Source: Cyclobacteriaceae bacterium (GTDB taxonomy: Bacteria; Bacteroidota; Bacteroidia; Cytophagales; Cyclobacteriaceae). Taken from it: 64,000 bases of DNA. Location of the stretch: contig JAIBBC010000001.1 of NCBI GenBank assembly GCA_019694875.1, forward strand, positions 558,001 through 622,000, read 5' to 3'. This document shows, piece after piece, positions 44,713 to 61,770 of this stretch. The position numbers and the translations under genes are program-made. Below the pieces are notes generated by a model, which searched no databases, had not been told where the DNA came from, and saw nothing but the letters and a program-made list of their open reading frames with translations. How positions within the stretch are numbered: position 1 is the first letter of the stretch; the number at the start of each line of letters is the position of its first letter.

Positions 44713-44729
44713 ATAGGAGTTACTCCTAT
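44713..44729 (+). promoter_or_regulatory. 17-bp palindrome, copy 1 (ATAGGAGTTACTCCTAT)
   Basis: A perfect inverted repeat with 8-bp arms and one centre base. It lies 53 bp before the ATG at 44783, after the Avs-like stop. The same 17 bases recur at 54057 and 61712. Confidence 0.75.
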
Positions 44730-44782
44730 TACGCACGTTCACAAGTTGCAAGGAGTTGTATCTTTTTGCCAAAATCACCCCC

Positions 44783-45160
44783 ATGATTTACGCACTTGAT
44801 TCAGAAGAAGAAATTAAGACGATTCCCCATGCACGAGATTACGATCGCTGGCGCAAAGGACTTACCGATGCCGAACACGAAGCCATCCTGGAAGCGTTGA
44901 CGAAAAAGATCAGCGACACCGAAGTACAAACGTCAAGTTGGATGCCGGGTAAGTCGTGGGCGAATACACCCTATGAGCCAATCTATACGAAAGCGTGCAA
45001 TAAAAGTTATGAGCAGGCAGCGTTGTTCTTCGGGCAACTCGTATGGGAAGCGTTTATGAATCATTCGGATTACTGGGCATTCGGCAGGTACACATTGAAT
45101 GATGTTCCGCTGAAAGGTCTTACTTACTTTAAAGTTTATCCTAGGTTCCATAAATCTTAA
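44783..45160 (+). CDS. Unknown protein, first gene of a pair
   Basis: 125 residues from the ATG at 44783 (MIYALDSEEEIK). It is acidic at the N-terminus, with a helix DAEHEAILEALTKKI and aromatic segments (WMPGKSWANTPYEPIY, FFGQLVWEAFMNHSDYWAFGRY). I do not recognise the family. It starts 54 bp after the palindrome at 44713 and ends 3 bp before the PD-(D/E)xK-like gene, so the two probably form one operon. A TTG at 44756 in the same frame would start inside a likely promoter. Function unknown. Confidence 0.65.
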   Translation: MIYALDSEEEIKTIPHARDYDRWRKGLTDAEHEAILEALTKKISDTEVQTSSWMPGKSWANTPYEPIYTKACNKSYEQAALFFGQLVWEAFMNHSDYWAFGRYTLNDVPLKGLTYFKVYPRFHKS

Positions 45161-45163
45161 TCT

Positions 45164-46057
45164 ATGTCAAGCCTTCGAGCTTTCGTCCAGGCGATACAGC
45201 CGCATGCAAATCGTATTGTGCATGCTTCCATGAGCTCATGGAATCGGATTGATTTCAACCAGCACGAGCCGGACATCCTTTTAGAGTATTTATCTGGCCA
45301 AGGTAAAGGCGTTGACTACCTGAATGAGCATCTGGCTGCCCCGCTTACGCGCGAAACAGATTTCGTGGTTAAGTTTTGTTCTATCCTTGCTCATCAAAAG
45401 CCACGCGTGCATCGGACCCGCCATAATCAACGGGCTTGTGTTTCACCTGTGCCACAAAGCTGTGAACTGGGTGATCTGATAATTCAGTTCCTGCTGATTG
45501 ATCAAGACAAGAAGCCGATGTTCATGAGTGCGTTGATCTTGCAAGCAAAGAAAGGTCTATCCCCCGATAACCTGACCCAACAGTGTTTGTATGAGCACGA
45601 TGACCGGTTAATCTTTCCGAACTACTTTGGAACACCCAATGAGGAGTGTCTCCTGCCCGGCTATGAAGACCAAAGAACGCACGCACTAGCGTACCTCTTC
45701 CTTCAAGATTCATTTACCGGAATTGGTCAAATCCCGAATTGCGCTGCATTGCGATTTCCATATAGTCATTTGTTTCTGAAAATTCTTACAACTGATTTTG
45801 GTAAACAATTCCAGTATGCAGAGAGTAACTTTAACAACGACTGGGACAAACTGATCAGCAAGGTCACTTTGAAGCTTGCAGAATCAACCTATCGTGGAAC
45901 AAACCGGGTTGTCGGACTTGACTTCTTCCTCGAGCAGTTTAACGACTACTACTACCACCCTGAATACTTGTACCGAAGCGAAGCTGAAGGGTTGAACATA
46001 ATTCAGATTATTGTTCAACCAAAAAAGAAATTATTTGACAGCGGACCGCTTTCATAG
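45164..46057 (+). CDS. PD-(D/E)xK-like nuclease of unknown family, second gene of a pair
   Basis: 297 residues. The middle reads SCELGDLIIQFLLID, then KPMFMSALILQAKKG; a Glu/Asp in the first and a QxK in the second is the pattern of a PD-(D/E)xK-type nuclease core. The surrounding fold is not recognised. It starts 3 bp after the 125-residue gene, which suggests co-translation and a shared role. The pair sits between the Avs-like gene and a lipoprotein pair inside the island. The nuclease assignment rests on motif spacing only. Confidence 0.5.
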   Translation: MSSLRAFVQAIQPHANRIVHASMSSWNRIDFNQHEPDILLEYLSGQGKGVDYLNEHLAAPLTRETDFVVKFCSILAHQKPRVHRTRHNQRACVSPVPQSCELGDLIIQFLLIDQDKKPMFMSALILQAKKGLSPDNLTQQCLYEHDDRLIFPNYFGTPNEECLLPGYEDQRTHALAYLFLQDSFTGIGQIPNCAALRFPYSHLFLKILTTDFGKQFQYAESNFNNDWDKLISKVTLKLAESTYRGTNRVVGLDFFLEQFNDYYYHPEYLYRSEAEGLNIIQIIVQPKKKLFDSGPLS

Positions 46058-46347
46058 CTTTCCTTTCAGGTGTGCTCTTCAAATGACGTTGAACTAGTGC
46101 CCGTATATCATCCCATGGCATACAAAATTACACCACCCAGTTTAAAGTGCTTAATCATTAAGTAAGCGATCTGTGGATGAAAATAAACCGAATATAACCT
46201 GATCGTTGGCTATTGTTTTGGAGACGAAATTGAGATTCGCTCGAAAGGTAGCTTTAATCGCATCTCAATGTGAGTTCTCACGTTAGTTCATCCTCGCAAC
46301 CACGGAAAAAAAATGAAAAATTAAAAAGCAACATTTTTAACATTGAA
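46058..46347. other. Intergenic stretch with small inverted repeats
   Basis: No gene is supported here. ATTGAGAT at 46229-46236 pairs with ATCTCAAT at 46262-46269, followed by GTGAG/CTCAC at 46271-46282; these could be transcription end signals for the 45164 gene. The spacer ends in an A-rich stretch. Confidence 0.5.
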
Positions 46348-46797
46348 TCAATTGAACCCGGATTGCCTTGAAAATTGTGAGAAATCGATTTTAGGAAAAT
46401 CTACCTCGGTGACATTCCATCCGGGAATTATTTCGATCATGATTGAATTTTGTTTTACGAAAAGCCGAACCTTAAAGAACTTGCCAAGCGCGATTTCATA
46501 ACCATCAAAAAGAGTCTTGTCGAAAACTCGCTCCTCAGTTATCATCTTCTCGGCATCCTTAACGATTTCGAGTAAAACCGAATCGTCTGAAATCGAAATA
46601 ATTCTACTTGGGAATGAGTCCTTTAATTTCCAGCCTTGAGACATCGGTGCTGAAATGAAACTCCCTGGCATTTGATTAGCATCTATCCCTAGGCTTGACG
46701 GTTCATCGAAAGCAATTAGATCACCATTGATCACTTGTTTCGGTTCGTTACAGTCGTACGTACCGGTGAATTTCCCGTCTAAAATAGAATGCACCAT
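46348..46797 (-). CDS. Unknown protein
   Basis: 149 residues from the ATG at 46797. The frame is open up to 46902, but that would overlap the lipoprotein gene by 68 bp, so I take the internal ATG. The product is mixed alpha/beta, acidic (IDDSVLLEIVKDAEKMI-like segments), and has no signal peptide. No family is recognised. It lies 37 bp after the lipoprotein gene on the same strand, so the two may be co-transcribed. Function unknown. Confidence 0.45.
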   Translation of the reverse strand: MVHSILDGKFTGTYDCNEPKQVINGDLIAFDEPSSLGIDANQMPGSFISAPMSQGWKLKDSFPSRIISISDDSVLLEIVKDAEKMITEERVFDKTLFDGYEIALGKFFKVRLFVKQNSIMIEIIPGWNVTEVDFPKIDFSQFSRQSGFN

Positions 46798-46834
46798 AGT
46801 TGACTTTATTAAATCGTCTTTGCCGAAATTATGT

Positions 46835-47482
46835 TTATCGATACAACACTCTTGCAAGCTCGAGCTTTTTTGTAATAAAGTTAATATGCGATTGAGCAAC
46901 ATTCTTTTGATCTGGATCTTTCAATTTTGTTTCCCATTCGTGTATCTGTGCATTATAGAAATCCTCCAACAACTTACCCTCGTCAAACGGCACAATAACT
47001 TTGAAATACAATATTCTATTTTTTTCATTCAGATATAGTGGGTTGGATTGTAATGAAGGGAGATCTGATGCATTCATAAACCTTTTTTCTAACCCCAGGA
47101 CGCGACCAGTCGAGCAGTTAATGATTTGGCCGACCATTCGACTTGGTCCGAAGGAGAACTCCAACGTATCGCCCTTGACCTGAAAATCGCGCATGTCGTA
47201 GATCCTCTCCTGTTTTAACTGCGCGATGATGTTTATGTAGTTGTTATAGGTGATACGCATTTGCCCCTTTATGAGATCGGTTTGAGCTTCCTGAAAGACC
47301 TTTATCTTGATCGGCATCAGATCATTGAAGTAAATTCTGTTAAAACGCTTACCCTCTACGCCCTTTAGCGCTTGTGAATAAGCCGTGGTATGGTCTCCAA
47401 TGAAATCTTTTAACTGTGATTTTCGGGCACAAGAACTGAGCAGACATAAAAAGCTGGCTAAGAACACGAAACTGGTTTTCAT
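46835..47482 (-). CDS. Lipoprotein of unknown function
   Basis: 215 residues with a lipobox LLSSC (Cys18) after MKTSFVFLASFLCLLSS. The mature part is helical at both ends with a central beta portion (LEFSFGPSRMVGQIINC). No family is recognised. It is followed by the 149-residue gene and is divergent from the XRE regulator at 47597, whose 16-bp palindrome lies between them. It could be a periplasmic partner of a nearby system, but nothing in the sequence names one. Confidence 0.65.
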   Translation of the reverse strand: MKTSFVFLASFLCLLSSCARKSQLKDFIGDHTTAYSQALKGVEGKRFNRIYFNDLMPIKIKVFQEAQTDLIKGQMRITYNNYINIIAQLKQERIYDMRDFQVKGDTLEFSFGPSRMVGQIINCSTGRVLGLEKRFMNASDLPSLQSNPLYLNEKNRILYFKVIVPFDEGKLLEDFYNAQIHEWETKLKDPDQKNVAQSHINFITKKLELARVLYR

Positions 47483-47546
47483 ACTAATAGTTTTACGACA
47501 ATCCGGGAATTGAAATTAAAATCAATTTACGTGTTCGGGCTCAATT

Positions 47547-47562
47547 GAGCACTATAGTGCTC
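47547..47562. promoter_or_regulatory. 16-bp perfect palindrome (GAGCACTATAGTGCTC)
   Basis: Arms of 8 bp without a gap, 34 bp before the XRE start and 65 bp before the divergent lipoprotein start. Such sites usually bind small XRE regulators; self-control is likely. Confidence 0.7.
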
Positions 47563-47596
47563 GAATAAATTTGACGGACACCGATAGCTTGAAGCT

Positions 47597-47842
47597 GTGG
47601 AAAGCAATGTTCGATTGAGGCAAGTTTTCGGGAAAGTCCTTCAAAAGCTGCGGGGTGAAAGAGGTGTAAGCCAGCAAGAGGTGGCCGACTACTGTGATTT
47701 GGAGAGAGCTTACATATCGAGATTAGAACGAGGGCTAGTGCAGCCAACGATTACCACTATTTTTAAACTAGCGGAATTTTTGGATTTAGAACCGGGGGAA
47801 TTTATAACTATGGTTTATACTGCCTTAAAAAGGAAAAAATAG
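47597..47842 (+). CDS. XRE-family HTH regulator
   Basis: 81 residues, starting at GTG 47597. The HTH is typical: FGKVLQKLRGERGVSQQEVADYCDLERAYISRLERGLVQPTITTIFKLAEFLDL. The length and fold resemble controller proteins of restriction-modification systems and small phage-type repressors. A perfect 16-bp palindrome lies 34 bp upstream and is its likely operator. No restriction or methylase genes are near. It could control the lipoprotein gene on the other strand as well as itself. Confidence 0.85.
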   Translation: MESNVRLRQVFGKVLQKLRGERGVSQQEVADYCDLERAYISRLERGLVQPTITTIFKLAEFLDLEPGEFITMVYTALKRKK

Positions 47843-47866
47843 TGCGGTGTTTCGTCTTTCATTAAC

Positions 47867-47900
47867 CGGACAAAAGATCTTCATCGACAAATCTTGTCCG
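47867..47900 (+). terminator. Terminator-like hairpin after the XRE gene
   Basis: CGGACAA-AAGAT pairs with ATCT-TGTCCG with a small bulge and a 12-base loop, 25 bp after the XRE stop. Confidence 0.5.
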
Positions 47901-48020
47901 CAGTTTAAATCTGCCACTGTTCCGGAAATCCTTCCCATTCATAATTTAATCTTCGACACTAGCTGTCACACATTCTGTTCACGGGGGATTGACAAGTAAT
48001 TTAAGTTCTCCCCAACTTAC

Positions 48021-48392
48021 GTGAAAATCGTAAGCACAGTGAGACAGGATTACAAGGAAGGCATGCGGCTTAAGCATATGAATCATGGTCGTGCCGGCGT
48101 GATTTTGAGAGCGGAGAAACAATCGTTTGGGGTCTATCATTACGTTGTACTATTGGACGGCGAGACAGTACCACAATTATTTAACTGGAATGAGATTGCC
48201 CCGGAAGATCACCCCTGGCATGAAAAGATGAAAGAGTGGCGAGCTGAAGGCTTAAGACGTGGTTTTACTAGTATAGTAATTGGAACAAGCAAAACGGGCT
48301 ATAGGGTATTCTATTGCAACAATAGTATCGGTTATAATAATCTAGTCCGAGACAATCCAGAAATTCGCATGCAATATTACTGGAGACTTTAG
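48021..48392 (+). CDS. Unknown small protein, beta-barrel-like N-terminus
   Basis: 123 residues from GTG 48021. The N-terminal part (YKEGMRLKHMNHGRAGVI, then VVLLDGETVPQLFNW) looks like a small SH3-type beta barrel; the C-terminus is basic and aromatic (YRVFYCNNSIGYNNLV). I do not recognise the family. It is convergent with the SRAP gene, with a 6-bp gap. The SRAP and endonuclease III neighbours suggest a nucleic-acid role, by context only. Confidence 0.5.
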   Translation: MKIVSTVRQDYKEGMRLKHMNHGRAGVILRAEKQSFGVYHYVVLLDGETVPQLFNWNEIAPEDHPWHEKMKEWRAEGLRRGFTSIVIGTSKTGYRVFYCNNSIGYNNLVRDNPEIRMQYYWRL

Positions 48393-48398
48393 CGACCA

Positions 48399-49478
48399 CT
48401 AACTCATTGAAAGCTCCGGTTTTATATCTTGAGCGGCCGCAAGTTGAAGGTGGCTTTCATTTACCTTCTCAGCACTAATGGCATTTTTAAAAGCCTCCAT
48501 TGCGCGTTTCTTCTCACCGTTCTCTAGAAATGCGCTGGCCTCCTGAATGGCCGCGTTATAGTTAAACGGCGCCAGGACCTCAGGTACGTTTGGATTAATT
48601 CCTCGGGTTGTAAGCAACTTCGAAATAGTGTATGCCCGCATACTGGGGTCATTGTAGGGCTGACACAATTCTACGATATCCTCCTTCTTTGAGGATGGAT
48701 TAAGCCAGTCCTTGTAATTCTCTTTATCAATGAATACCGGCATTCGCTTTTTCGAGTTGTGAACATATTCCATTATCGAATTTGCCGGGCATGTCAAAAG
48801 CGTATAGCTGTAGTAGTATTCGCCCGTGCTGGGATCTTTCCATCGGCTATAAAGGCCGGCCATTGACCTTAATTTTTGATCCCGAAACGTAACGTAGTAG
48901 GGAATCTTTACCGTCCCCGCATCATCAAGCCAACGCCATTCGTAAAATCCCGTGACAGGGATTAGACAGCGCTGTCCATTTTTTACTGCATCGCGATATG
49001 ACGGTTTGTCCCACATCTCTTCCGATATGCAATTAAGAGTGTTTGGCCGGAGTTGCATCGCCTTCTCCCGCTCCTTGTGAAAAAACGGCACAAGTCCCCA
49101 ATTGAACGCCTTCAGTTTATCTGGCGCCCCCGCCGTGACGATATGCGTTGGGAAGTAATCAAACCCGTTTTCGAAATACCGTTCGTAAGCACCCTCAGTT
49201 CTCCAAGCACTCAGATATCTGTCGTACCAACGAAGCAGGGTCAGTTCTTGTTTTGTAAGACTGGAGGGCTCAGAACCTTTCTCTGAGTATTTCAAAATTT
49301 GTGATCCCAGTTCGCTACTATTCCTTGTTCCAATCTCCCGAAGTTGATGATCCTTTCTAATCAGTTCCTCGAATTTTTCCTGGATAGGTTCAATATCTTC
49401 AGACAACGATTCGAAGGCTGCATGATAGTGTTCCAAAAGGTCATTTAGCCTTTGTACTTCCGATTTGTAATAACACAT
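48399..49478 (-). CDS. SOS response-associated peptidase (SRAP)
   Basis: 359 residues. The SRAP domain is readable: catalytic Cys2 in MCYY after Met removal, LIPVTGFYEWRW with its Glu, and CPANSIMEYVHNSKKRMPVFI with the active His. SRAP proteins form a thiazolidine bond between Cys2 and abasic sites in single-stranded DNA and shield them. Residues before the core form a long helical insert (about 5-90), longer than in short SRAPs. The C-terminal about 60 residues are helical. It is divergent from endonuclease III, which also acts on abasic or damaged bases. Confidence 0.9.
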   Translation of the reverse strand: MCYYKSEVQRLNDLLEHYHAAFESLSEDIEPIQEKFEELIRKDHQLREIGTRNSSELGSQILKYSEKGSEPSSLTKQELTLLRWYDRYLSAWRTEGAYERYFENGFDYFPTHIVTAGAPDKLKAFNWGLVPFFHKEREKAMQLRPNTLNCISEEMWDKPSYRDAVKNGQRCLIPVTGFYEWRWLDDAGTVKIPYYVTFRDQKLRSMAGLYSRWKDPSTGEYYYSYTLLTCPANSIMEYVHNSKKRMPVFIDKENYKDWLNPSSKKEDIVELCQPYNDPSMRAYTISKLLTTRGINPNVPEVLAPFNYNAAIQEASAFLENGEKKRAMEAFKNAISAEKVNESHLQLAAAQDIKPELSMS

Positions 49479-49572
49479 AGCTAAAAGAAAAAATTAAAGA
49501 CGACTAGCCAACATTTGGCCATGTAAAGATTGTCAATAAAAATCTTAATTTTTGAGGACAAATGCTTTGCTA

Positions 49573-50334
49573 ATGCCAACAGTCAATTGGACCAAAGAAT
49601 TCAAACCTTTAATTAAGAAATACAAAGGTAAACCCCACCCATTGGAGTATAAGAGTCCGTACCAGTTGGTGATCATGGTCGTACTCGCCGCCCAGGATTC
49701 GGACCGCAACATTAACAAGGTTTCGATACCGCTATTTGAAGCTTATCCAACCTTTGACAAATTGGGGAAAGCTGACTACGACAATGTGCTACCGTTTCTT
49801 TCAAGCGTGCGGGGAGGTCGGAAAAAGACGAAATGGATCCTGGATATCGCCAAGACGATTAAAACAGAAAAGAATATTCCGCAAACAATGGCTGAACTCA
49901 CTGAGCTACCCGGCATTGGGAGGAAGTCGGCGAGCGTGATCATGAGAGAACTCGGTGCACCGGCAGAAGGGATAATTGTGGACCTTCACGTTGTCCGGGT
50001 CGCTCCTCGTATAGGAGTTGCATCAGGAAACGATCCGAAGAAAATCGAGAAACAGTTGATGGAAGCCATTGATAAGAACGACTGGGGAGATGTCGGAATG
50101 GCTATCTCCCACCTTGGACGCGAAATCTGTCGTCCAACGGATCCAAAGCATGAACTCTGCGTAATGAATGAGGTTTGTGCTTATTGTAATGGAACCACAG
50201 CACACCTTTTATCCACAAAGGCTAACAGAAAAAGATTAAAGGGTACTAAAGCACAGGAAAAGTCAGGTAATGTTGTTAAAAAAAGCAATCTCAGCGGGCA
50301 GCGTAGCCTAAAACCAACCTTGAAAAAACGGTAG
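49573..50334 (+). CDS. nth: Endonuclease III-type DNA glycosylase
   Basis: 253 residues from ATG 49573. The HhH-GPD core is clear: ELPGIGRKSASVIM with catalytic K118 and VDLHVVRVAPRIG with D137. The [4Fe-4S] loop fits C-x6-x-x2-C-x5-C, but its second ligand is His: CRPTDPKHELC then VMNEVC. An extra Cys follows (AYC). The C-terminal 50 residues form a basic tail (KRLKGTKAQEKSGNVVKK). The ATG at 49573 follows a TAATTTTTG box. The enzyme would remove oxidised pyrimidines and cut abasic sites. It sits divergent from SRAP. Confidence 0.9.
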   Translation: MPTVNWTKEFKPLIKKYKGKPHPLEYKSPYQLVIMVVLAAQDSDRNINKVSIPLFEAYPTFDKLGKADYDNVLPFLSSVRGGRKKTKWILDIAKTIKTEKNIPQTMAELTELPGIGRKSASVIMRELGAPAEGIIVDLHVVRVAPRIGVASGNDPKKIEKQLMEAIDKNDWGDVGMAISHLGREICRPTDPKHELCVMNEVCAYCNGTTAHLLSTKANRKRLKGTKAQEKSGNVVKKSNLSGQRSLKPTLKKR

Positions 50335-50344
50335 TCGCTTTGCT

Positions 50345-50593
50345 TTGATAGAATTCAATCACGAAATATGGAATAGCTGGATATTGGAAGGATACAGGTT
50401 TATCCGTTACCGCCGCATCGATGGCAATAGCGTGGCATTAAAACCGTACAAAGAAGTTGATCAAGAAAACGATTTAAATGAGGAAGTCTGCTTTTTCGGC
50501 ATAAGAGAGGACGAAGTAAGTGAATGGGCAGACAATGACATTGATTTGCTGGAAGACTTTAGGTTTTATGTCGAAGCAGGGTTTGAAGAATGA
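50345..50593 (+). CDS. Small acidic protein of unknown function
   Basis: 82 residues from TTG 50345. The product is strongly acidic in the second half (NEEVCFFGIREDEVSEWADNDIDLLEDF) with an N-terminal IWNSWILEGYRFIRYRRIDG. No family is recognised. It lies 10 bp after the nth stop, in the same direction, so it is probably co-transcribed with it. The TTG start and the short length keep confidence moderate. Confidence 0.5.
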   Translation: MIEFNHEIWNSWILEGYRFIRYRRIDGNSVALKPYKEVDQENDLNEEVCFFGIREDEVSEWADNDIDLLEDFRFYVEAGFEE

Positions 50594-50708
50594 TTACTAA
50601 TCACCGTCTAACAACTGGTCGGTGGATGTATTATTAGGTCATCTTTTAAATAAGGCTGCTGCCTTTCTTGTCAGGAAAAGGTGGTGATTAATTTTTAAAA
50701 ACAAGTAA

Positions 50709-51215
50709 ATGAACGGAATTCAGGATCTGATATTGATAGGTGAGGTTGCACTTCAATCAAAAATCGCACAGCGGGCAGCTGAGCGTTTACAGGCGACTCA
50801 CGACAGTTTCGATCACATTGAGGTTTGGTCCTCGATCCAATCGATTCTTTGCGCTACCGCAAATGTTTCCAAGATTCTTTGGCCAAATTATAGGTTTCAA
50901 GCTCGAGGCGAGCGATTACGGAAGATACTCAATGTGAAAGACGACAATCTTCTGGCGAACAGAAAATTCCGTAATCACTTTGAACACTATGACGAACGGG
51001 TTGACGAATGGTTCAGCACGCAGTCGCAGGGACTGTATGTAGATTTATCTATGAATCCATCTTTACGCGGGGACTCTGCTTCTGGAGATCACAGGGGTTA
51101 CAATTCGTTTAATAATACCGTCGTATTTCGGGGTGAAGAGCTAGACCTGAATGAGTTATTGAAAGCGCTTGATGAGATATTTGTCAGGTGTGAGCCGTAC
51201 ACTCTGAGATATTAA
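50709..51215 (+). CDS. HEPN-like protein, second copy in the island
   Basis: 168 residues, mostly helical. The HEPN motif is R88-NHFE-H93 in RKFRNHFEHYDERVDEW. Upstream helices (IAQRAAERLQATHDSFDHIEVWSSIQSIL) fit the bundle. The C-terminus is partly beta-like (NTVVFRGEELDLNELLKAL). It is unrelated in its C-terminal half to the HEPN protein at 34099. HEPN RNases often act as toxins; no obvious antitoxin partner is adjacent. It starts 115 bp after the small acidic gene. Confidence 0.6.
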   Translation: MNGIQDLILIGEVALQSKIAQRAAERLQATHDSFDHIEVWSSIQSILCATANVSKILWPNYRFQARGERLRKILNVKDDNLLANRKFRNHFEHYDERVDEWFSTQSQGLYVDLSMNPSLRGDSASGDHRGYNSFNNTVVFRGEELDLNELLKALDEIFVRCEPYTLRY

Positions 51216-51228
51216 GACTGCGTTAAAG

Positions 51229-51627
51229 TTAGACTGCGTATTTCTTCTGCAACATTTCATACCGTTCACGCATTTCCGGTCCCGCCTCTTGCGTACGCGA
51301 CAATTCAATCTCATTAATGATTGTTTCTGCTGTTCGCGGCAGGCCTGCCTGAAGCATACTGCGGATGGTCATGGCCATACCGGCAATTTCAAATCCCTGT
51401 GCGATTGGGTTCTTCGCTGGCTCAATCATAAACCGGATAACCATGTGATTGATTATTTCTTCGGGATCCAACTCTACACCTTCCAAACCAATAATTAGCT
51501 GCGGACTATCGGCCTGCACTTCTACAACGTTAAATTTGTAGCCGCATGCTTCCAACGCAAGTTGAAGTTCGGCCGCGTCTTCCGGAGAAAACACCTCTAA
51601 GTGAAATGACAAATGGTTTAATTCCAT
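51229..51627 (-). CDS. Unknown protein, second gene of a pair
   Basis: 132 residues. The N-terminus is beta-like (LNHLSFHLEVFSPEDAAEL), with a central acidic part (EGVELDPEEIINHMVIRFM) and a C-terminal helix ending MQKKYAV-like. No family is recognised. It overlaps the end of the upstream gene by 10 bp, so it is coupled to it. No signal peptide. Function unknown; the overlap suggests a two-protein unit. Confidence 0.55.
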   Translation of the reverse strand: MELNHLSFHLEVFSPEDAAELQLALEACGYKFNVVEVQADSPQLIIGLEGVELDPEEIINHMVIRFMIEPAKNPIAQGFEIAGMAMTIRSMLQAGLPRTAETIINEIELSRTQEAGPEMRERYEMLQKKYAV

Positions 51628-51983
51628 AACGGTAGTTGCCTATTCAGGTGAACATATTTCCTCAAAACGCGCTCAATCTCCGTAAAAAAAATACTCTCAT
51701 GTGAACGGGCTGGTTCTTCACTTTGCGCCTGCTTCACGGATTCCACAACGTTTCGATATTCCGGAAGCTTTGTATGGCCGCAGTCGAGTAGCTCTGAAAG
51801 CTCGCGTTGGATATTCTGCACGTTTGCAGCAGTAATCTCTTCAGGCTGACACTGCGAAACCAGGTACGGCACCAGCACATTATTGTCGGTGAATCTCCGG
51901 ATCAGATTCCTTCTTACCGCCAACACAATGCCTTGGGCGAGTATCGTCTTATTCCACCCCTTCGCTAAAAAACCTTCTTTCAT
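51618..51983 (-). CDS. Unknown protein, first gene of a pair
   Basis: 121 residues, mainly helical, with a basic N-terminus (KGWNKTILAQGIVLAVRRNLIRRF) and acidic middle. No signal peptide or known motif is seen. It overlaps the next gene by 10 bp. The pair is divergent from the small gene at 52125; the 141 bp between them hold a consensus -7 element for the plus-strand gene. Function unknown. Confidence 0.55.
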   Translation of the reverse strand: MKEGFLAKGWNKTILAQGIVLAVRRNLIRRFTDNNVLVPYLVSQCQPEEITAANVQNIQRELSELLDCGHTKLPEYRNVVESVKQAQSEEPARSHESIFFTEIERVLRKYVHLNRQLPLWN

Positions 51984-52091
51984 GGCATTTTACGTTAAAG
52001 TTTACTATAGAATGCGAGCAGAGCAGCCTGCTCTCCAACAAAGAAAAACTAATATTTTTAGTATTTCAACAATACCGTTAACTAAAATTTT

Positions 52092-52099
52092 TAGCTTTG
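52092..52099 (+). promoter_or_regulatory. Bacteroidota -7 element (TAGCTTTG)
   Basis: TAGCTTTG matches TAnnTTTG and lies 26 bp before the ATG at 52125. No clear -33 box is seen. Confidence 0.55.
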
Positions 52100-52124
52100 C
52101 TTTTTGGCTTCAAAGCACGCATTT

Positions 52125-52337
52125 ATGAAGGAATTGGGGGAAAGCCGGACTGTCGAAGTTGAGTGTGCGTACGGCTTGATGCAAGCATTTAATGCGATCA
52201 ATGAGGAACGCAGCACGCTGGTCTTCGTCTACAACGGTATAAGGTTCTGGCGGGAAAACAATACGTTTATGGTAGAATGTCGCTCGATAAACGCTTCTGC
52301 CAAACTTTGTACTCGGCATAATAAGGCATCTTATTAA
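52125..52337 (+). CDS. Small protein of unknown function
   Basis: 70 residues from ATG 52125 (MKELGESRTVEVECAYGLM). A mixed alpha/beta pattern (LVFVYNGIRFWRENNTFMVECRS) suggests a small folded protein; three Cys are present. A consensus -7 element lies 26 bp upstream, which supports it as a real gene. It ends 36 bp before the stop of the convergent PDAG lipoprotein gene. No family is recognised. Confidence 0.45.
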   Translation: MKELGESRTVEVECAYGLMQAFNAINEERSTLVFVYNGIRFWRENNTFMVECRSINASAKLCTRHNKASY

Positions 52338-52372
52338 TGACCTCTCTATCGTTTATTGAATAAATCATGTTA

Positions 52373-53611: not shown

Positions 53612-54056
53612 AGGCTTACGATTATTAAATCAACTTGAGTATTCGTGTGACCTGAACGCTCACCTGCGTTACCATCCCAGCCTCTGCAAAACGTCCCAGG
53701 CTTACCCCGTTTTCTTTGATAAAGTCCGTCAGTTCCTTGTCTTTGATCCAATGAATTCTGATTCCAACACATCGCTTGTCCAGCCCGTTTTAAATTTACC
53801 GTCCGTACACTTCGCACGTTCGACCGATGAATTTTTGAGCAATAAAGTTATTAGGCCACTGAATCAAGCGGGGCAACTTTGTCCACCATATTGGATGACC
53901 ACTAGCACCGCAATGTCCTGATCCGTCAGTTGACTGACTTGCTAGTGACAGTGACGATGAGAGCCTTTACCAAAGTAAAGATTTTGGAAGTCGTTTAAAA
54001 TTAAATCGTGTTAACTTTTCAGGAATTGAGGAAAGGGCGAAAAAACAGCCCTGTCA
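53612..54056. other. Long intergenic stretch, possible gene remnant
   Basis: On the minus strand, 53625-53789 is open without a start codon and reads like a helix-rich C-terminus (ELTDFIKENGVSLGRFAEAG), blocked by a stop at 53790-53792. It could be the end of a decayed small DNA-binding protein. A short hairpin AGGGC/GCCCT lies at 54034-54052. Otherwise nothing is recognised. Confidence 0.3.
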
Positions 54057-54073
54057 ATAGGAGTTACTCCTAT
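54057..54073 (+). promoter_or_regulatory. 17-bp palindrome, copy 2 (ATAGGAGTTACTCCTAT)
   Basis: Identical in all 17 bases to copies at 44713 and 61712. It lies 107 bp before the KAP NTPase start, next to a TAATATTTG sequence at 54077-54085 that could be a -7 box. Confidence 0.75.
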
Positions 54074-54180
54074 CGCTAATATTTGAAATGTTTTTTCCAG
54101 CCCTTCGCAAGCATTTTGGTCGAATCGGTTCGGATCAAATTCAATAAACGTTACCTTGAATTCCCCATCCTCCAGTATCT

Positions 54181-57100
54181 ATGATGAACATAAGCGCCAC
54201 GTTGGACAGTCTAAAAACCGTGTCTAAAAATCAGTGGCAAAAACTACGCGGTCGTGTCACGTTTGATAAGGCTACCTATTTCCGACTGATTAAACGAAAA
54301 GCGCGACATGCTGGCGCAAGCCTGGCCTGTGAGTTTGGTATCTCGGGCAAGCCACATCCGGCCAGAGTTGTTTCCGAAATTCTTAAGTATACAAAAATAT
54401 TGATAGCAGCACTCGTTACCTATGTCTTGTATCGTTACCTCCTATTATCCGCGCTAACGCCTGAACGTCTAAAAACCGATGAAACCGTTTTACACCAAGT
54501 TGTCGATCAGGTATACGATCAGAATTTTTTTGAATTGATTTTTCTGATTGCGCTTACGGGGCTTGTGACAAGTTCCGTAATCCGGTTTGTGAGGCCGATC
54601 CGGTTCACCGCGACGCTTCACTGGATTATGCTCGGATGCTTTGGATTGTATCTCTTGGAAAAATACCACCTGCACGATTTTAAATTTTTTACTTCCAAGG
54701 TCTTCAAACTCGATTATTGTTTGTTCCTCGGGCTTCCCCTGATGCTCGAAGTAATACTTAGAATATACTATGCATTAAGAAAACCGAAATTGGTTAACGC
54801 GTCCCTTTTTCTGGAGAACCGCCCTATCCGGGATGATGACGAGGATAAGACAACCCGAAAACTTACGACGAACCTGATTGCGAAACATATTAACCAAGCG
54901 CCATTTTCACAGTCTTACTCCATCGGCATTGTAGGCGATTGGGGCGTAGGTAAAACATCCTTCTTCAACAGCTTGGAAATAAAAATCAGCAAGTCGACCA
55001 TTATCATTCATTTTAATCCTTGGCTTTCCACCGGTAAGAATTCGCTTCTTCAGGAATATATCGATTCCCTTAAAGATGAACTGGGTCAATATGATAAGTC
55101 GCTTTCTGCTGAACTTGACAGCTACCTGAATTCCTTGATTGAGCTTGAAAAGAATGCCAAGACCAACATTACCGGTATGATCGATAATATGTTCCGCTCA
55201 ACACATTCGTCCAGCGTAGAACTGGAAAAAGTGAAGCGCTCAATTGAGCGGATCGGGAAGAAAATTGTGATCATCATTGACGACCTGGACCGGCTTGATA
55301 AGACCGAAATCATTGAGGTGCTTAAGCTCATCCGGAATACAGGAGACTTTCCAAATACCGTATATATCTCCTGCTACGACAAGGTATTTCTGCTGCATGC
55401 GTTACAGAATTTCAGCAAGCGGAACATCAGCATTCAGCTTGACAAATTCTTTGACATTGAAATTCCGCTCGCCCCCTTCCCTCCGATGACGCTCTCGCAG
55501 TATATCTCCGAACAATTCTTTACTCCGTATTCAATATCGGAAAAAGAGTCTGCCGTGATACTAGAGAGCGTTGGAAACACCACGTTCCGGCAGTTTCGGG
55601 AAACTAAAAAATTCATCTCCTCTTTGCGACTTAACTATAACCTTTACGGAAAGAGCTTGTATCTGCATGACTTCTTCATCCTGGAAGTATTGAAAGTCAA
55701 GTACCCTTTTTTGCCGGATCTGCTGTGGCGCGACAAACACCGGTATCTGGCCGGAGAAGGTTCCCCTGCCATTATGAAGCTTCTCACTGCTGAGACTGAA
55801 GCCGATGAAAAGGCGGTTGACTGTATCGAAACTGAGCTGATCAGCAAGGAAAAAGATGAGTTTGCCAAACACTTTCTAGGGAACGAAGATCACCTGCTCA
55901 TTATGAGGCTGCTAAAGATATTGTTTCCCGGTAAACCGTATGGACATGTCTACGCGATCCAAGAGCCCAATTTCTTTGAGAGCTATTTCTATAATCAGAT
56001 ACCCGATTCCAAGACCGGGATTTCGAACTGGTACGCATCAATCCTTTCCAACACTTACCTGGATGACCCGTTCTTTCAAGAGCCCTACGATGCAAAAAAA
56101 GCTGAGACTATTTTTGATGCTCTATTTACCAATCCCGAGCAGTACAAGGCTACGTTCGGTACGCAGGATGCATTGATCTTTCATTTTCTCCGGCATCTGG
56201 TAGATTGGTCTATGGGCAAGGTACCAATAACCCCGTTCATCAAAGCATTTCAGCATTCATCCGAGGCTGACAAGAAGCTTTACTTTTCTATCCTGATGGT
56301 TGCCGGAAAATTAACGAAGGATCAAATTGAAGCGCGAACCACATTCTTCGGTACAATCATCCGAAGCTTGATTTATGAACCGCAGATCACCATCGAGTTT
56401 ACAGATCTCGAGAGCATTAAGATCCACAACCTCTCACTCTGTGAGACCTACTTCAGGGATCTCGACGAGTTCACTAACCAGGCCTTTACAATTTTTCACA
56501 ATCAAATTGACACAATCTCCGATGCGCGCAAAGTCTCATTACATCCCCGATCATTCAATATGCTAAAGGCATTTGTTGAGAAAGATCCCGTTGGATATCT
56601 GGACTTGCTGATCCGGGCAGCGAGTCTGCCGAATTTTAGCTTGTGGTTCGCGTTGGAGCCGATGACCTTTCCGCAACTGTTCGAAACCAAAGAGAAGTTT
56701 ATTGACTTTATCAAGTCTGCCAAGCAGTACCCGGAATTCAGAAAGAAGATCCTGTTGGAATATGTGACCCGATCGAAAAAAGACGAGGCATACGGAAGAT
56801 ATCAATTTGTCATTGACCCGGATCAATTGGCCCAAATGCCGGCTGAGTTCAGGAACGCGTGGGTCTCTGTTCCCAAAGCTATCAAGGATCGCCTACAGAG
56901 CACCGATGTGTTTTTCCAGACAAGATTAACAAACCAGCCACCGCCAAATGAAAAACCGGATGACAATGATCACGTGCTGAACCAAGTGTTTGAAATAGAT
57001 GAAGGTGAGCTCGAAGTTGTTATAACGCCCTCTAAACTTTCAAAATTCTGGCGGCTGGGATTCAAGTTCTCAGCTGACAAGGATTTTATCAAACTTCAGC

Positions 57101-57504
57101 TTCCACGACATAGCCCTCAATATCCGGATGTGTGCATCACTGTGGGACAACCTACAAAGGGAAACGTCAGGTTATGGACTGATTATAATATTCTCGACTT
57201 GGTAGAAGTCTATAAGCTTGATCCACAACTCAACTATTTTACGCGCGATCTAAAATATGACGGTGGGCCCGTGTCAGTAAGAATCAAAATGACAAAGGTC
57301 CCGGAAAATTATATCACGTTCGAGTTGGAGAATGGAGGAAGATCGTTCGGGGTTAAAGGGTATCCGTTAAAGACACTGAAGTACTTCAGGATTGCGGCCT
57401 GGTGCGATCAACAGGATTTTGAACTTCAGTTGGATATTCGGATAAAAATGAGAATTGACGGAAAAGTTGTTGAAGCACAGAAACTCGCGTTAGAGCAGCG
57501 CTAG
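54181..57504 (+). CDS. KAP-family P-loop NTPase with four TM helices
   Basis: 1107 residues. Four membrane helices lie at about residues 67-90, 115-137, 142-161 and 176-196, before the KAP domain. Walker A is GDWGVGKTSFF (about residue 252-262) and Walker B is IVIIIDDLDRLD (about 362). KAP NTPases with TM insertions anchor to the inner membrane and are known in phage-exclusion genes such as pifA. The C-terminal about 500 residues (helical, then beta-rich after 930) are not recognised. A 17-bp palindrome lies 107 bp upstream. It converges on the 992-residue gene. Confidence 0.82.
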   Translation: MMNISATLDSLKTVSKNQWQKLRGRVTFDKATYFRLIKRKARHAGASLACEFGISGKPHPARVVSEILKYTKILIAALVTYVLYRYLLLSALTPERLKTDETVLHQVVDQVYDQNFFELIFLIALTGLVTSSVIRFVRPIRFTATLHWIMLGCFGLYLLEKYHLHDFKFFTSKVFKLDYCLFLGLPLMLEVILRIYYALRKPKLVNASLFLENRPIRDDDEDKTTRKLTTNLIAKHINQAPFSQSYSIGIVGDWGVGKTSFFNSLEIKISKSTIIIHFNPWLSTGKNSLLQEYIDSLKDELGQYDKSLSAELDSYLNSLIELEKNAKTNITGMIDNMFRSTHSSSVELEKVKRSIERIGKKIVIIIDDLDRLDKTEIIEVLKLIRNTGDFPNTVYISCYDKVFLLHALQNFSKRNISIQLDKFFDIEIPLAPFPPMTLSQYISEQFFTPYSISEKESAVILESVGNTTFRQFRETKKFISSLRLNYNLYGKSLYLHDFFILEVLKVKYPFLPDLLWRDKHRYLAGEGSPAIMKLLTAETEADEKAVDCIETELISKEKDEFAKHFLGNEDHLLIMRLLKILFPGKPYGHVYAIQEPNFFESYFYNQIPDSKTGISNWYASILSNTYLDDPFFQEPYDAKKAETIFDALFTNPEQYKATFGTQDALIFHFLRHLVDWSMGKVPITPFIKAFQHSSEADKKLYFSILMVAGKLTKDQIEARTTFFGTIIRSLIYEPQITIEFTDLESIKIHNLSLCETYFRDLDEFTNQAFTIFHNQIDTISDARKVSLHPRSFNMLKAFVEKDPVGYLDLLIRAASLPNFSLWFALEPMTFPQLFETKEKFIDFIKSAKQYPEFRKKILLEYVTRSKKDEAYGRYQFVIDPDQLAQMPAEFRNAWVSVPKAIKDRLQSTDVFFQTRLTNQPPPNEKPDDNDHVLNQVFEIDEGELEVVITPSKLSKFWRLGFKFSADKDFIKLQLPRHSPQYPDVCITVGQPTKGNVRLWTDYNILDLVEVYKLDPQLNYFTRDLKYDGGPVSVRIKMTKVPENYITFELENGGRSFGVKGYPLKTLKYFRIAAWCDQQDFELQLDIRIKMRIDGKVVEAQKLALEQR

Positions 57505-57680
57505 TGAGCGGAACTTACACAATTCCAAGATTCCACAGATTGCACCAAATTTATTTAGTGGGAAGGGATTTCCTGAGGGGCTGTATACTAACCTTTGATG
57601 GTCGGAATCTACGGCTCGAAGTTATAAAGCCATTACCAAACAACGAATAACGCTCAATCCCTGGGATACTTTCAAAATCA

Positions 57681-60659
57681 TTACGTTCTATATCGTTGAA
57701 ATATCTCCTTCTGGAACAGGTATCCGTTTATCCCCAATTTATTACAAAACATATCTGCCAATTCCTTTGAACCATGTTCGTACGTAAATTCAATCAGCTT
57801 CAAGATTTGTTTTTCAACAATTGTAAAGTACGAATTCAAGGCAAGTGCATTTAGTATTTTCCCAATATAATCAGCATTTCGAACAACATCACCCCTATCC
57901 TTTAACTCAATCAAGTGATTTACCAACTCATGTGTGTTAAAACTCCTATCTGTATAACTCACAGTTTTCACCAGTATCTCTGTACGCCTATCGTCCAGTA
58001 CATCAATATATCCAATTAATCCACTCAGGTCAGACAGCATACGCTGATAATCTTCTTGTTCATCGTCTCCATACATATTAATCAGAAATTCCCAAAGATC
58101 TATCACCAACGATGCATACCTGTTCCATTCGCCTTTATCCAGTTTTTTAAGATGTGCCTGCTGAATTCTCATAAATCGAACCAGCTCATCAATATTTTTC
58201 GGAGTTGATCGAGTCAGGAATTGATAGATCAACGTATTTGCTTCCAATCGACCATAGCCACGCAAGTAAAATACACCAATGTGCGCAGCCATGTTTCTTT
58301 CCTGGAGGGTTCTTTCCGGCAACACGTTACTATCAATCGCACGAACATATAATGGAGCGGCTAGTTCATAAACCTGCTTGTTAAATGGGGCGTTTGCAAA
58401 GAAAAGTCCTCCCATGAATGCAAGCCATAACTCCTGATCCAACTCATAAAATTCTCTGAACTTTCCTGCTATCCATTCTTCATCTAGATAATAGAATTGC
58501 TGATAGTACATCCCGGTTAGAATGTAAGCGTCTAACACTTTGCGCTCCAAGCTAGACTCGAACAGGTACTTCATATCGGCGTCCCAAGAACCTATCGTTG
58601 GGTTGTTGTTCTCTATCCTTGAAATGCGGAGCGAATAATCAATCAAAGCCCGAAGAACCCTACCTGAAGTTGAGTTAATGACGTACGTAACATAGTCCAT
58701 GTTAGAACTCTTAAATCTATCACGTGGACTTACTTGAGGCGCGAGTTTGACAAGGATTCTCTTTGCAAGTGGCAAAAAAATAGGATCAAACGCATGCGAA
58801 TCAGACTGCGTACCATCGGTTATCAAATACCCAATTGATCCTGTCACAAATGTGTGATCTGCCCGCCATCCATCCTGATCAAGCTTCAATGCATCTGTTC
58901 CAAATTGTTCACGGGAAACATAACGCTCACAAAATTGCAACACCTTTTCCCATGAAAATTCCTTCTTGTTTTTCCATGCATCCCGAAATCCTTCCAGAAC
59001 ATGATACGCGTAGGTATACGGGAGCTCATCGAAACATTCAAGATTTTCCGAAAAATGCGCAGGTGAATTTTTAACAGCTTGCTCCAGCGCCCGAGAAAAA
59101 CCTTCTAAAGAAGGTTCCCGCAAATTTCTTTCCGGGATAAAGTTTGCGATCGCAACTGCGATTTCTGAAAGATCCATCTCCTGCAACGTTTCTGCCGCAT
59201 AAGGCGATTCAAACTCGTGGATTGATGCAATGCTTCGCCCGCTTTGCTCCGCTTCCTCATACGAATAGTTCAATTTTTCAGAAAGGCTTCGATACTCAAT
59301 AGCAAAGGCTTCATTCTCCCGCAAGGCCGTCAGCATTCGTAATTTCCAATATTCATTTCGTTCAGGACTCTCAGGGTCAACTTTCTCTGCAATAACTTGT
59401 TTTAGTTTTTCAATTTCATTTTCCTTAAAAAACTTCGCATGAGCCTTTAATACTCTTAATATTTCCGCTTCAAACTTATCATCCTTTAAATAATCTTCAT
59501 CCTTAGTATCCACCATCTTCCAAAAGAAAATACGGCCTTCGTCTGCCGGATTTACAGCCAACGCATCAAGCACAAGTCTTTTGAAATATGCTATTCGATA
59601 TCGCTTATCGTAAATCAACGTCTTGAAGAGTTTCGTTATCTGATCCGGGAACAGCCTGACTTTCTCACGAAGCATCTGCCTGAGAATACGCGCGAATACA
59701 TGCTGGATATCTTCCCTACCATACATTTCGTCATCGAGATCGGCTATATCTTCCCGCAGGTATAATGAAGTAAAATCGATATTGAGTCGCTCAATCATCA
59801 TCTGAAGCTCAGCTTCATCTATATTCTGAATACCATCATCTTCAACAACTTTTCGAATTATCGCAAGCAAACTCTGTTCTTCTATTGATTCATAGGCTTC
59901 GACTATAGTCTTGTCCTTTGGCAAATCGTTTCCGAATCTGGAAGAAACCACCAGTCGTTCTCCAGAAATTGTCAGTCGGAGCAAATAGTCATCAGGTTCT
60001 GATTTTAAGCGACCTACAATGGCGGGTGTATTCAGCAGGACAAGTTTCAAGTTTCTCGCCAAAAACAGTATCGTCTTATCAGAACAATGCCCGACAATCT
60101 TTTTGACGAGATCTTTGTCAATCAAGGAAGCACGAAGAAAATATAGCCTTACTGTAGTATAGTATAGGATTTCATTACTTTCAAAATCCCGTTTGACTTC
60201 ATCCGGATCGCGTTCCCGAATTGCAAACAGGTGCTTCAAGATCAGTTCGGCTTTACCAATATCCTCCTGGGTAGGCGAATCATTTAAGAATTTGGGAAGG
60301 AGGTTATCACAAAGCTCCGCTGTTTGGAGTGTGGTGTCATAATCGCTATCCAACCACGTATGAACATGATTAAACACGGTTATGGGAATTCGATCATTTG
60401 GCAGATTGCCAAGAATCTTGATGAATGCATGCCAGGTTGCATAGTTATCACGTGGATTGTTTGAAACATCAATGATAATCTTAATTATCTTATCGATGTA
60501 TTCGGTATGCTTCCCCTCCTTAATTTGCAGTGACATTTTCTCCAGATAAATCAATGCATCCCATCTGGGAATAGAAGTCCCCTCCTTTTCCCTTACAGGA
60601 ATTGGATTTGCTTCGGGTGCGAAGTACCCTTCCTGTTCGAGGAAGTCAAACCAAACCAT
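57681..60659 (-). CDS. 992-residue helical-repeat protein, partner of a PIN protein
   Basis: 992 residues with no recognised family. It is rich in amphipathic helices, with alpha-solenoid-like stretches (AELILKHLFAIRERDPDEVKR, LQEMDLSEIAVAIANF) and no signal peptide or TM helix. Its start shares one base with the stop of the PIN gene (TGATG at 60659), so translation is coupled and the pair is very likely one system. The solenoid probably binds a partner or target. Function unknown. Confidence 0.7.
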   Translation of the reverse strand: MVWFDFLEQEGYFAPEANPIPVREKEGTSIPRWDALIYLEKMSLQIKEGKHTEYIDKIIKIIIDVSNNPRDNYATWHAFIKILGNLPNDRIPITVFNHVHTWLDSDYDTTLQTAELCDNLLPKFLNDSPTQEDIGKAELILKHLFAIRERDPDEVKRDFESNEILYYTTVRLYFLRASLIDKDLVKKIVGHCSDKTILFLARNLKLVLLNTPAIVGRLKSEPDDYLLRLTISGERLVVSSRFGNDLPKDKTIVEAYESIEEQSLLAIIRKVVEDDGIQNIDEAELQMMIERLNIDFTSLYLREDIADLDDEMYGREDIQHVFARILRQMLREKVRLFPDQITKLFKTLIYDKRYRIAYFKRLVLDALAVNPADEGRIFFWKMVDTKDEDYLKDDKFEAEILRVLKAHAKFFKENEIEKLKQVIAEKVDPESPERNEYWKLRMLTALRENEAFAIEYRSLSEKLNYSYEEAEQSGRSIASIHEFESPYAAETLQEMDLSEIAVAIANFIPERNLREPSLEGFSRALEQAVKNSPAHFSENLECFDELPYTYAYHVLEGFRDAWKNKKEFSWEKVLQFCERYVSREQFGTDALKLDQDGWRADHTFVTGSIGYLITDGTQSDSHAFDPIFLPLAKRILVKLAPQVSPRDRFKSSNMDYVTYVINSTSGRVLRALIDYSLRISRIENNNPTIGSWDADMKYLFESSLERKVLDAYILTGMYYQQFYYLDEEWIAGKFREFYELDQELWLAFMGGLFFANAPFNKQVYELAAPLYVRAIDSNVLPERTLQERNMAAHIGVFYLRGYGRLEANTLIYQFLTRSTPKNIDELVRFMRIQQAHLKKLDKGEWNRYASLVIDLWEFLINMYGDDEQEDYQRMLSDLSGLIGYIDVLDDRRTEILVKTVSYTDRSFNTHELVNHLIELKDRGDVVRNADYIGKILNALALNSYFTIVEKQILKLIEFTYEHGSKELADMFCNKLGINGYLFQKEIFQRYRT

Positions 60660-61528
60660 CAGGGTTGCATTTTACTGAATACATATCTACGGTAGCTTGG
60701 ATGACTTTGCATCAAGGTGTTCAGCATTGTCTTCTCAAAACCCGTTGGGCTTTGTTTTGAAAGTATGCTATCTATATAGGGTAAATGATCCAAAAACTCA
60801 TTGTCCAAATCTTCATGCAAGAATGGAGCAACTGCTTTATCCCGTACTTCCAAGCTTGCCTGCTTTAATCGTTGCTCTTTAAGGAAATCCAGATAGCTCG
60901 GCATGGTACTCCGCAACTTGTCCAATAATACCCGTATCTCACAGGTGTATGCTAAACCAACGCTATCGAAATGATCTTTCAGTTGTCCATGTAACTTACT
61001 TTTAGCGGTAGGGTCACTAAAATCTTTAGAGTTCTCAGAGACGAAATGGCAATTTGTATACCCTTTGCTTTTAATGAAGCTTATCAAAGATAGGATATTC
61101 ACTGTGTCGCGAAAACTGTCAGATGTATGATTCGGTGCCAGGACCGCAAGATTTCTCTTCCCGGCTTCCAATAGAAGTTCGTCTGATATAGGAGCAACTT
61201 CGGATAGTGAGAAAATATTATCCAACCTTGCAATCCGGTCTAAGGCTATTGCTTCAAACTTATCAGGACTCACTGCCTCGCGAAGTGCTTTACTATCTTT
61301 TATTACTTGCGACACACTTTTTTGAAATTCAAGCAATTTCTTTTTTGCCTGTTCGATTTTCTTGCTTTTTGAACGCTCCCACTCATCTTTAATGTTCTGC
61401 GGTAAAATGCACTTGACTGCACCTTTATCCATCCAGAAAAGTAATTCCCCAAGCATACTGTGTTCGCCCTCATCTAATTGAGACAAAATGGCTAACCACG
61501 AATCCGTATCAAGCGTAAGGTATATCAA
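60659..61528 (-). CDS. PIN-domain protein (DUF4935-like), first gene of a pair
   Basis: 289 residues. The N-terminal PIN domain has an acidic set expected for a nuclease: D7/D9 in YLTLDTDSW, E49 in DEWERSK, D141 in SFRDTVNI and D169 in SENSKDFSD. The C-terminal about 90 residues are helical and charged. PIN domains cleave RNA, often as toxins; in this case the large solenoid partner is not an antitoxin family. Overlap by one base with that gene supports a two-gene unit. Catalytic activity is inferred. Confidence 0.75.
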   Translation of the reverse strand: MIYLTLDTDSWLAILSQLDEGEHSMLGELLFWMDKGAVKCILPQNIKDEWERSKSKKIEQAKKKLLEFQKSVSQVIKDSKALREAVSPDKFEAIALDRIARLDNIFSLSEVAPISDELLLEAGKRNLAVLAPNHTSDSFRDTVNILSLISFIKSKGYTNCHFVSENSKDFSDPTAKSKLHGQLKDHFDSVGLAYTCEIRVLLDKLRSTMPSYLDFLKEQRLKQASLEVRDKAVAPFLHEDLDNEFLDHLPYIDSILSKQSPTGFEKTMLNTLMQSHPSYRRYVFSKMQP

Positions 61529-61711
61529 TTGATCATGGGTATAAACCTAAATTTCTATAAATTCTGAATTTAAGCCAATCTTATACAAGCATTATGAAAA
61601 TGGTAGACTTATGGCGAACGGAAATCGTGCAGCCATCCAAATCCAACTCGTTGCCTCGCACTTCAATATTATGGTCAAATTAGGTCGTTTTTGTATTCTA
61701 GGCCAGTTTCG

Positions 61712-61728
61712 ATAGGAGTTACTCCTAT
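61712..61728 (+). promoter_or_regulatory. 17-bp palindrome, copy 3 (ATAGGAGTTACTCCTAT)
   Basis: Identical to copies at 44713 and 54057. It lies 42 bp before the HlyD-type gene start at 61771, on the far side of the PIN gene. Confidence 0.75.
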
Positions 61729-61770
61729 AAAATACCTGGTAACCAAAAAACTTTTCATACATAGCATAAT

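Follow-up and report, generated by a model that had tools for sequence, protein, structure and literature searches.

The window analysed here, a stretch of 64,000 nucleotides from a Cyclobacteriaceae bacterium, carries the palindromic 17-mer ATAGGAGTTACTCCTAT at three places, 44713-44729, 54057-54073 and 61712-61728. All three matches are exact, as the initial annotation had stated, and it was also right that the window holds no further copy: even with up to three mismatches only six matches were obtained, i.e. the three places on both strands (0.09 expected from shuffled sequences). The distance to the following start on the plus strand, given there as 42-107 bp, is 53 bp at the first site (ATG at 44783), 107 bp at the second (54181) and 42 bp at the third (61771).

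At the first site (44713..44729, plus strand) a -7 box, TATCTTTT, begins 29 bp past the palindrome (44759..44766, plus strand; p=0.005 versus the arm background), and an ATG follows 16 bp after this box. The first gene is an ORF of 125 aa (44783..45160, plus strand); in its longer reading, 44756-45160, neither Pfam nor PADLOC gave a match. The second ORF, of 297 aa (45164..46057, plus strand), had been labelled PD-(D/E)xK, which was not confirmed, as Pfam and PADLOC were without match here as well. The second palindrome (54057..54073, plus strand) lies 107 bp before the gene for a KAP-family P-loop NTPase of the PifA-like kind (54181..57504, plus strand; Pfam KAP_NTPase, 1.8e-36; PADLOC PifA, 9.9e-41). 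Distance and protein thus agree with the proposed assignment of this palindrome to a KAP NTPase, but no good -7 box is present at +29 on the plus arm, which is the KAP side; a weak CAATTCCT was seen at +28 on the minus arm. This site may be weak, may use another spacing or may act in a different mode.

The third palindrome (61712..61728) is situated between divergent units. On the minus arm, TAATTTGA lies at offset 29 (61675..61682, minus strand; p=0.001) and faces a unit composed of a PIN-domain protein of 289 aa (60659..61528, minus strand; Pfam PIN_12, 2.1e-16) and, as the second gene, a Dsr1-like defence protein of 992 aa (57681..60659, minus strand; PADLOC Dsr1, 1.1e-100; no match in Pfam). 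On the plus arm there is a weak -7-like word, TACATAGC, at offset 29 (61758..61765, plus strand; p=0.15), followed by the gene for an HlyD-like membrane fusion protein of 428 aa (61771..63057, plus strand; Pfam HlyD_D23, 9.1e-5, which is below the curated cut-off). Behind this gene lies a small cysteine-rich ORF of 78 aa with a KGG motif (63175..63411, plus strand; a reading of the sequence, Pfam being without match), which we take to resemble a double-glycine leader peptide. The palindrome had been assigned to this HlyD/peptide locus. The start 42 bp downstream is in agreement with that, but the good box faces the PIN/Dsr1-like unit and the HlyD side is weak.

In the whole genome (4.68 Mb, five contigs) the 17-mer occurs in 15 exact copies, as compared to none for the reversed control. 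With up to two mismatches, a hand count of unique places gave 36, namely 15 exact ones, 13 with one mismatch and 8 with two. This limit was used because the reversed control gives 21 matches at up to three mismatches. The perfect conservation of all 17 bases initially described holds among the three window copies, whereas copies elsewhere in the genome and in relatives vary. Outside the window, in the same genome and in relatives, the variants often change symmetrically (ATGGGAGTTACTCCCAT, GTAGGAGTTACTCCTAC, ATAGCAGTTACTGCTAT). The palindrome consists of the half-sites TAGGAGT and ACTCCTA with one central base, T, between them. Conservation ends at the dyad: the 17 strong positions are followed on either side by weaker ones, which symmetrically read nGAA in the outward direction, and the conserved part is limited to 17-23 bp. 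Such flanks would fit binding by a dimer. At orthologous promoters the palindrome is kept despite differing flanks. Neighbouring copies in the window genome appear to lie 7-10 kb apart, an interval of which we make no claim.

Among 17 genomes of the genus (window genome included), ten carry a copy with at most one mismatch, while the control gave one match in one genome. A sample reaching from the genus to the order (99 genomes including the window genome) has exact copies in five genomes, all from the genus. In the family sample (390 genomes, 84 genera) the exact 15-bp core was found in 17 genomes of five genera, with 85 matches as counted by eye. Since 15 of the 390 genomes each yield a single match to the reversed control as well, a lone copy in another genus is about what chance would give, and any lone copy is weaker evidence for this reason; multiple copies are restricted to genera g1 and g18. 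The exact 17-mer is also borne by four viral contigs (L139-L142). In a wider collection of genome contigs 55 stretches match, some of them far outside Bacteroidetes, where about 30 exact chance matches are expected by an estimate from the size of the collection.

Although 86% of the examined stretches of the window genome are coding, only four of the 36 sites fall within an ORF of 100 aa or more, the other 32 being outside such ORFs. The 104 site instances with up to two mismatches from 16 genomes were merged into 80 loci at a flank identity of at least 45 per 100 bases. Of the 80 loci, 16 have a TAnnTT on the pattern arm that begins at a distance of exactly 29 bp from the palindrome (expected 0.46, p=2.8e-20; at most 3 loci at any other offset). 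On the other arm the same offset is found in 6 of the 80 (expected 0.53, p=1.6e-5; at most 4 loci at any other offset). Counting both arms, no more than 21 of the 80 loci have a perfect TAnnTT at +29; with laxer de-duplication it is found in 13 of 34 exact sites. In Flavobacterium psychrophilum the -7 box of the phylum, TAnnTTTG, sits at -12 to -5 (PMC9723704). By its TAnnTT part this box is present at +29; the final TG is weak, and TAnnTTnG does no better there than elsewhere. Because the box starts 29 bp past the palindrome, the centre of the dyad would lie at about -50, a position typical of an activator.

A -33 TTTG has been deduced in Bacteroides and was not found in F. johnsoniae (PMC7366714). 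In the 42 arms with TA at +29 we found no TTG at a fixed place (at most 3 at any offset from 0 to 26). The missing -33 box would fit the need for an activator; by itself this is weak evidence, since no -33 motif was identified in F. johnsoniae either (PMC7366714). A box model was built on 47 loci from other genomes and applied to 26 sites of the window genome, where offset 29 ranked first on the opposite arm (z 3.4) but third on the pattern arm (z 2.4). As it ranks first on one arm only, the promoter signal is weaker within the window genome alone. With respect to the central T, the 34 exact sites have a gene on the T strand only in 18 cases, on the other strand only in 3, on both in 11 and on none in 2, and in 41 exact loci TAnnTT lies on the same arm as the T in 12 and on the opposite arm in 2. 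This bias is real for exact copies but weak for variants, and we do not claim an asymmetric site. Judged from spacing and placement, the palindrome is almost certainly a true operator of a promoter class.

Pfam and PADLOC were run on chosen neighbours of the sites, the 20 proteins scanned with PADLOC having been picked as likely defence genes. Defence-type genes behind the sites of the window genome encode a KAP/PifA-like NTPase, a Dsr1-like protein, AriAB (PARIS type), two Thoeris ThsB proteins, an OLD/Toprim ATPase, a type I methyltransferase and a Upx-like protein. Export is represented by a C39-type ABC exporter and an HlyD-like protein. Signalling and regulatory genes comprise CHASE3/PAS kinases, single receivers and an ECF sigma factor, and the remainder a UDG-like protein, an M23 peptidase, a weak RHS match and many genes without match. 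A strong PADLOC match was obtained in the unit adjoining 8 of the 36 sites (one of them via its duplicate), which is a minimum and not a rate, because the scanned proteins were selected for likely defence. The initial description, "defence and peptide export", is too narrow for the regulon in view of the kinases, receivers, ECF sigma factor, UDG-like protein, peptidase and unmatched genes. It looks mostly accessory, consisting of anti-phage systems, exporters, kinases, receivers and unannotated proteins.

Some sites have peculiar surroundings. In L040 (G000:C1:1193000-1211000; G000 is the window genome) the type I methyltransferase region is tandemly duplicated over about 8.7 kb, and each copy has a palindrome variant before hsdM and the compensated ATGGGAGTTACTCCCAT 400 bp away. 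At L053:3221, L066:3747 and L079:3894 three genomes keep the palindrome between convergent genes, one of them DUF2911; it therefore possibly drives an unannotated small transcript. Similar leaders, of about the form TTAGCTTCATTTCAGCATTCGGGG...TTTTGTCTCC, were seen at L037:3482 and 11097, L062:1208 and L083:4084, some 270-300 bp before the gene; this common leader is possibly a structured RNA.

A candidate for the protein that reads the palindrome is encoded in an operon with the conserved order A-B-C-D. D is a response regulator with a receiver domain (PF00072, 7.3e-23 or better) and a GerE helix-turn-helix (PF00196, 9.4e-9 to 1.5e-11; both for G007, G395, G014 and G422), a composition called REC-GerE in the following. 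The solved chains that match it are VraR (the closest, E 2e-24), NarL, DevR and RcsB. C is a kinase, with HisKA_3 (4.1e-10) and HATPase_c (1.2e-8) in G007, and relatives of C lie beside D in other genomes. B is hydrophobic and, by its sequence, apparently membrane-spanning; Pfam gave no match. A is a small protein with or without a lipoprotein-like signal, ends with CPxxC in 16 of 16 alignment rows (e.g. L076:3924-4400) and had no Pfam match where scanned. Possibly, A is the sensor or the signal.

In all 11 genomes of the discovery set the operon has the palindrome, or a variant with one or two mismatches, at its head (in G002 the head and D are on two contigs, joined by synteny with G009, and G014 has an extra ORF between A and B). 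The prediction was then borne out in five of five previously unseen genomes with D, whose heads are ATAGGAGTTTCTCCTAT in three cases and ATAGGAGATTCTCCTAT and ATAGCAGTTACTGCTAT in one each. Thus all 16 readable heads have the palindrome; that of the 17th genome, G116, lies off the contig. Several heads have merely box-like words at +29. Directly behind a palindrome variant in G395, G014 and G116 there are REC-GerE genes with TACCTTTG, TACCTTTT and TACCTTTA, respectively, at exactly +29 and an ATG few bases after the box; those of G395 and G014 are gene D of the operon, and the variant of G116 has three mismatches. Upstream of D2-type paralogs, the palindrome was found in none of 18 loci (14 with a recognisable B or C; L238 and L240 scanned to two mismatches; L247 with only 140 bp upstream of A), and in four of these upstream regions there was no other palindrome of note. 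Strong relatives of D (E 1e-75 or better) are present in 17 of the 390 family genomes, the exact 15-bp core likewise in 17, and both together in nine (p=1e-9 with the samples taken as one set). Within the genus, co-occurrence is significant with p=0.006 (Fisher), or with p=0.002 if the window genome is counted as having D. Genomes without a strong D may have one or two copies (G008, G016, G261, G320, G328, G331, G358 and G400).

Other REC-GerE regulators are also found within palindrome-headed units (L047, L081, L174). Furthermore, proteins of 82-95 aa consisting of GerE only adjoin palindromes or variants at L056:3274-3561 and L045:3165-3413 in the window genome and at L076:6541-6807, L235:6327-6587 and L250:298-558; they could compete with D or assist it.

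In one genome, G422, D and the palindrome have changed jointly at the level of single residues. The recognition helix starts with SEKT in 16 of the 17 D proteins and with TQHT in G422 alone, and G422 has the sole head among the 16 readable ones with GCAG instead of GGAG on both arms (ATAGCAGTTACTGCTAT). In this genome (84% complete) the ATAGCAGTTACTGCTAT version is present in two exact and three one-off places, one of the latter being mixed (GCAG left, CTCC right), whereas ATAGGAGTTACTCCTAT is absent; the control gave one match. In an alignment of ranges of equal length the lysine of SEKT coincides with residue 180 of RcsB. In the structure of RcsB with DNA, K180 and S184 are the only residues with direct base contacts and form hydrogen bonds with G-8, A-9 and A-6 of TTAGGAA (PMC5829831). 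Placed on the common TAGGA core, G-8 is the base altered in G422. The changed residue and the changed base are thus the pair that the RcsB structure would predict; this is a single evolutionary event and not a series.

A full-length D was not found in the window genome, although the whole genome was searched. Both the end of contig C4 and the start of contig C5 fall within a D-type GerE domain, and its helix is the same as in D of G009. The two ends (L231 5763-6000 and L058 1-555) have 127 bp in common, starting at most three bases from the receiver junction, and no third copy of this region is present in the assembly. The receiver joined to GerE here stands alone as a gene in both G009 and G002. 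If the two contigs are joined, the sequence encodes a receiver-GerE fusion of 221 aa that adjoins a CHASE3 kinase, on the far side of which there is another palindrome (C5:2436). In G009 this place is occupied by the A-B-C-D operon, which a search of the contig ends for A, B and C did not find here. Since the overlap starts within three bases of the fusion point, the D-type regulator may exist in two forms. Either the receiver was swapped by deletion or the joint reflects mixed strains.

The initial annotation had held that many genome-wide copies in unrelated places would point to a dispersed repeat. The motif search of the genome did find many, and a short mobile element of the REP type landing in intergenic DNA would account for 15 exact palindromic copies at unrelated loci. 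However, this reading fails because the copies are tied to promoters: a constant 29 bp to the -7 box at unrelated loci is not expected of promoter-independent insertion, conservation is confined to the dyad, orthologous promoters keep the palindrome between differing flanks, and the letter change of G422 is common to several copies. An RNA hairpin, acting after transcription as a terminator or leader element, would explain the perfect dyad with its compensated variants and the copy conserved between convergent genes. Yet the dyad is not followed by a T-tract (no T enrichment at offsets 0-8), the -7 box is found on either arm, and, as it lies 29 bp downstream, the palindrome is upstream of the transcript. 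Both explanations are very improbable; dispersed repeat, terminator and RNA hairpin were dropped after these positional tests.

More weight has to be given to the idea that the operator is real but is read by another transcription factor, e.g. the REC-GerE protein behind the PAS kinase at L047/L081, with D merely one of its targets. Several kinases, receivers and other REC-GerE proteins do lie behind palindromes, some genomes have copies without a strong D, and the assembly of the window genome lacks a full-length D. Against this, the palindrome heads the D operon wherever the head is readable, D2-type loci are without it, and in G422 the altered operator letter goes along with an altered D helix. 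We therefore regard this alternative as unlikely, and D as probably the protein that reads the palindrome. The initially proposed specific regulator common to the sites is hence supported by the +29 spacing, the intergenic placement, the conservation at orthologous promoters and the palindrome-headed operon of a candidate regulator, with the binding itself being predicted.

The most probable mechanism is that D would bind as a dimer to the two half-sites (TAGGAGT), with the centre of the dyad some 50 bp ahead of the transcription start, and would then recruit sigma-A RNA polymerase to promoters that have a -7 box and no visible -33 box. Because D, together with C, B and A, sits behind the same palindrome, the circuit should be self-reinforcing. 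The operator, the fixed spacing of the box, the operon linkage and the one helix covariation are apparent from the sequence, whereas the direct binding of D, an activating instead of a repressing role, its phosphorylation and the signal are inferred. For the model as a whole, i.e. that D, a regulator of the NarL/FixJ type, activates the palindrome promoters of a broad, mostly accessory regulon including anti-phage systems, we estimate a probability of roughly 0.8.

Similar arrangements are known. The kinase of NarL is of the HisKA_3 type, and NarL sites are spaced 7-2-7. D shares with NarL, the nitrate response regulator of E.coli, the REC-GerE composition with a kinase partner and, by prediction, heptamer half-sites starting with TA (TACYYMT for NarL, PMC4886647) and the many promoters. 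It differs in its predicted half-site TAGGAGT with only one base between the halves, in the operon partners A and B and in the phylum. The RcsB half-site TTAGGAA of the RcsAB box has the same TAGGA core, and 16 of the 17 D proteins have the lysine aligned with K180; unlike in the RcsB system, the neighbour of D is a short HisKA_3 kinase and not a phosphorelay, and different defence systems lie directly behind the operator. VraR, the closest solved chain by sequence, and LiaR answer cell-wall stress in Firmicutes, whereas the partners A and B of the palindrome operon have no Pfam match. DevR/DosR, whose chain also matched D, belongs to the NarL type too and has a palindromic box that precedes many promoters of the dormancy regulon; this box differs from the present one, as do host and partner genes.

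A link of the NarL family to immunity is already known in another form, as in E.coli RcsB-BglJ switches on leuO, which in turn acts on cas genes (PMC10013973). The core word AGGAGTTACTCCT was not found in the literature searched, and the matches listed in these searches contained no paper on such a regulon in Cyclobacteriaceae. It is conceivable, though we advance this only tentatively, that immunity and social functions are both under the master control of one two-component system, with a single palindrome and regulator over unrelated anti-phage systems, exporters and sensor kinases, and that the regulon of the window genome was moved under another kinase by the receiver change.

Many bacteria hold several anti-phage systems. 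With an operator that is readable from the sequence, it can be predicted which genes for defence, export and signalling would be under a common switch, and a candidate protein can be named together with its kinase. The variant of G422 offers a contrast in specificity, lysine to histidine versus G to C. Wherever a genome carries D, its regulon can be listed by a motif search for the palindrome.
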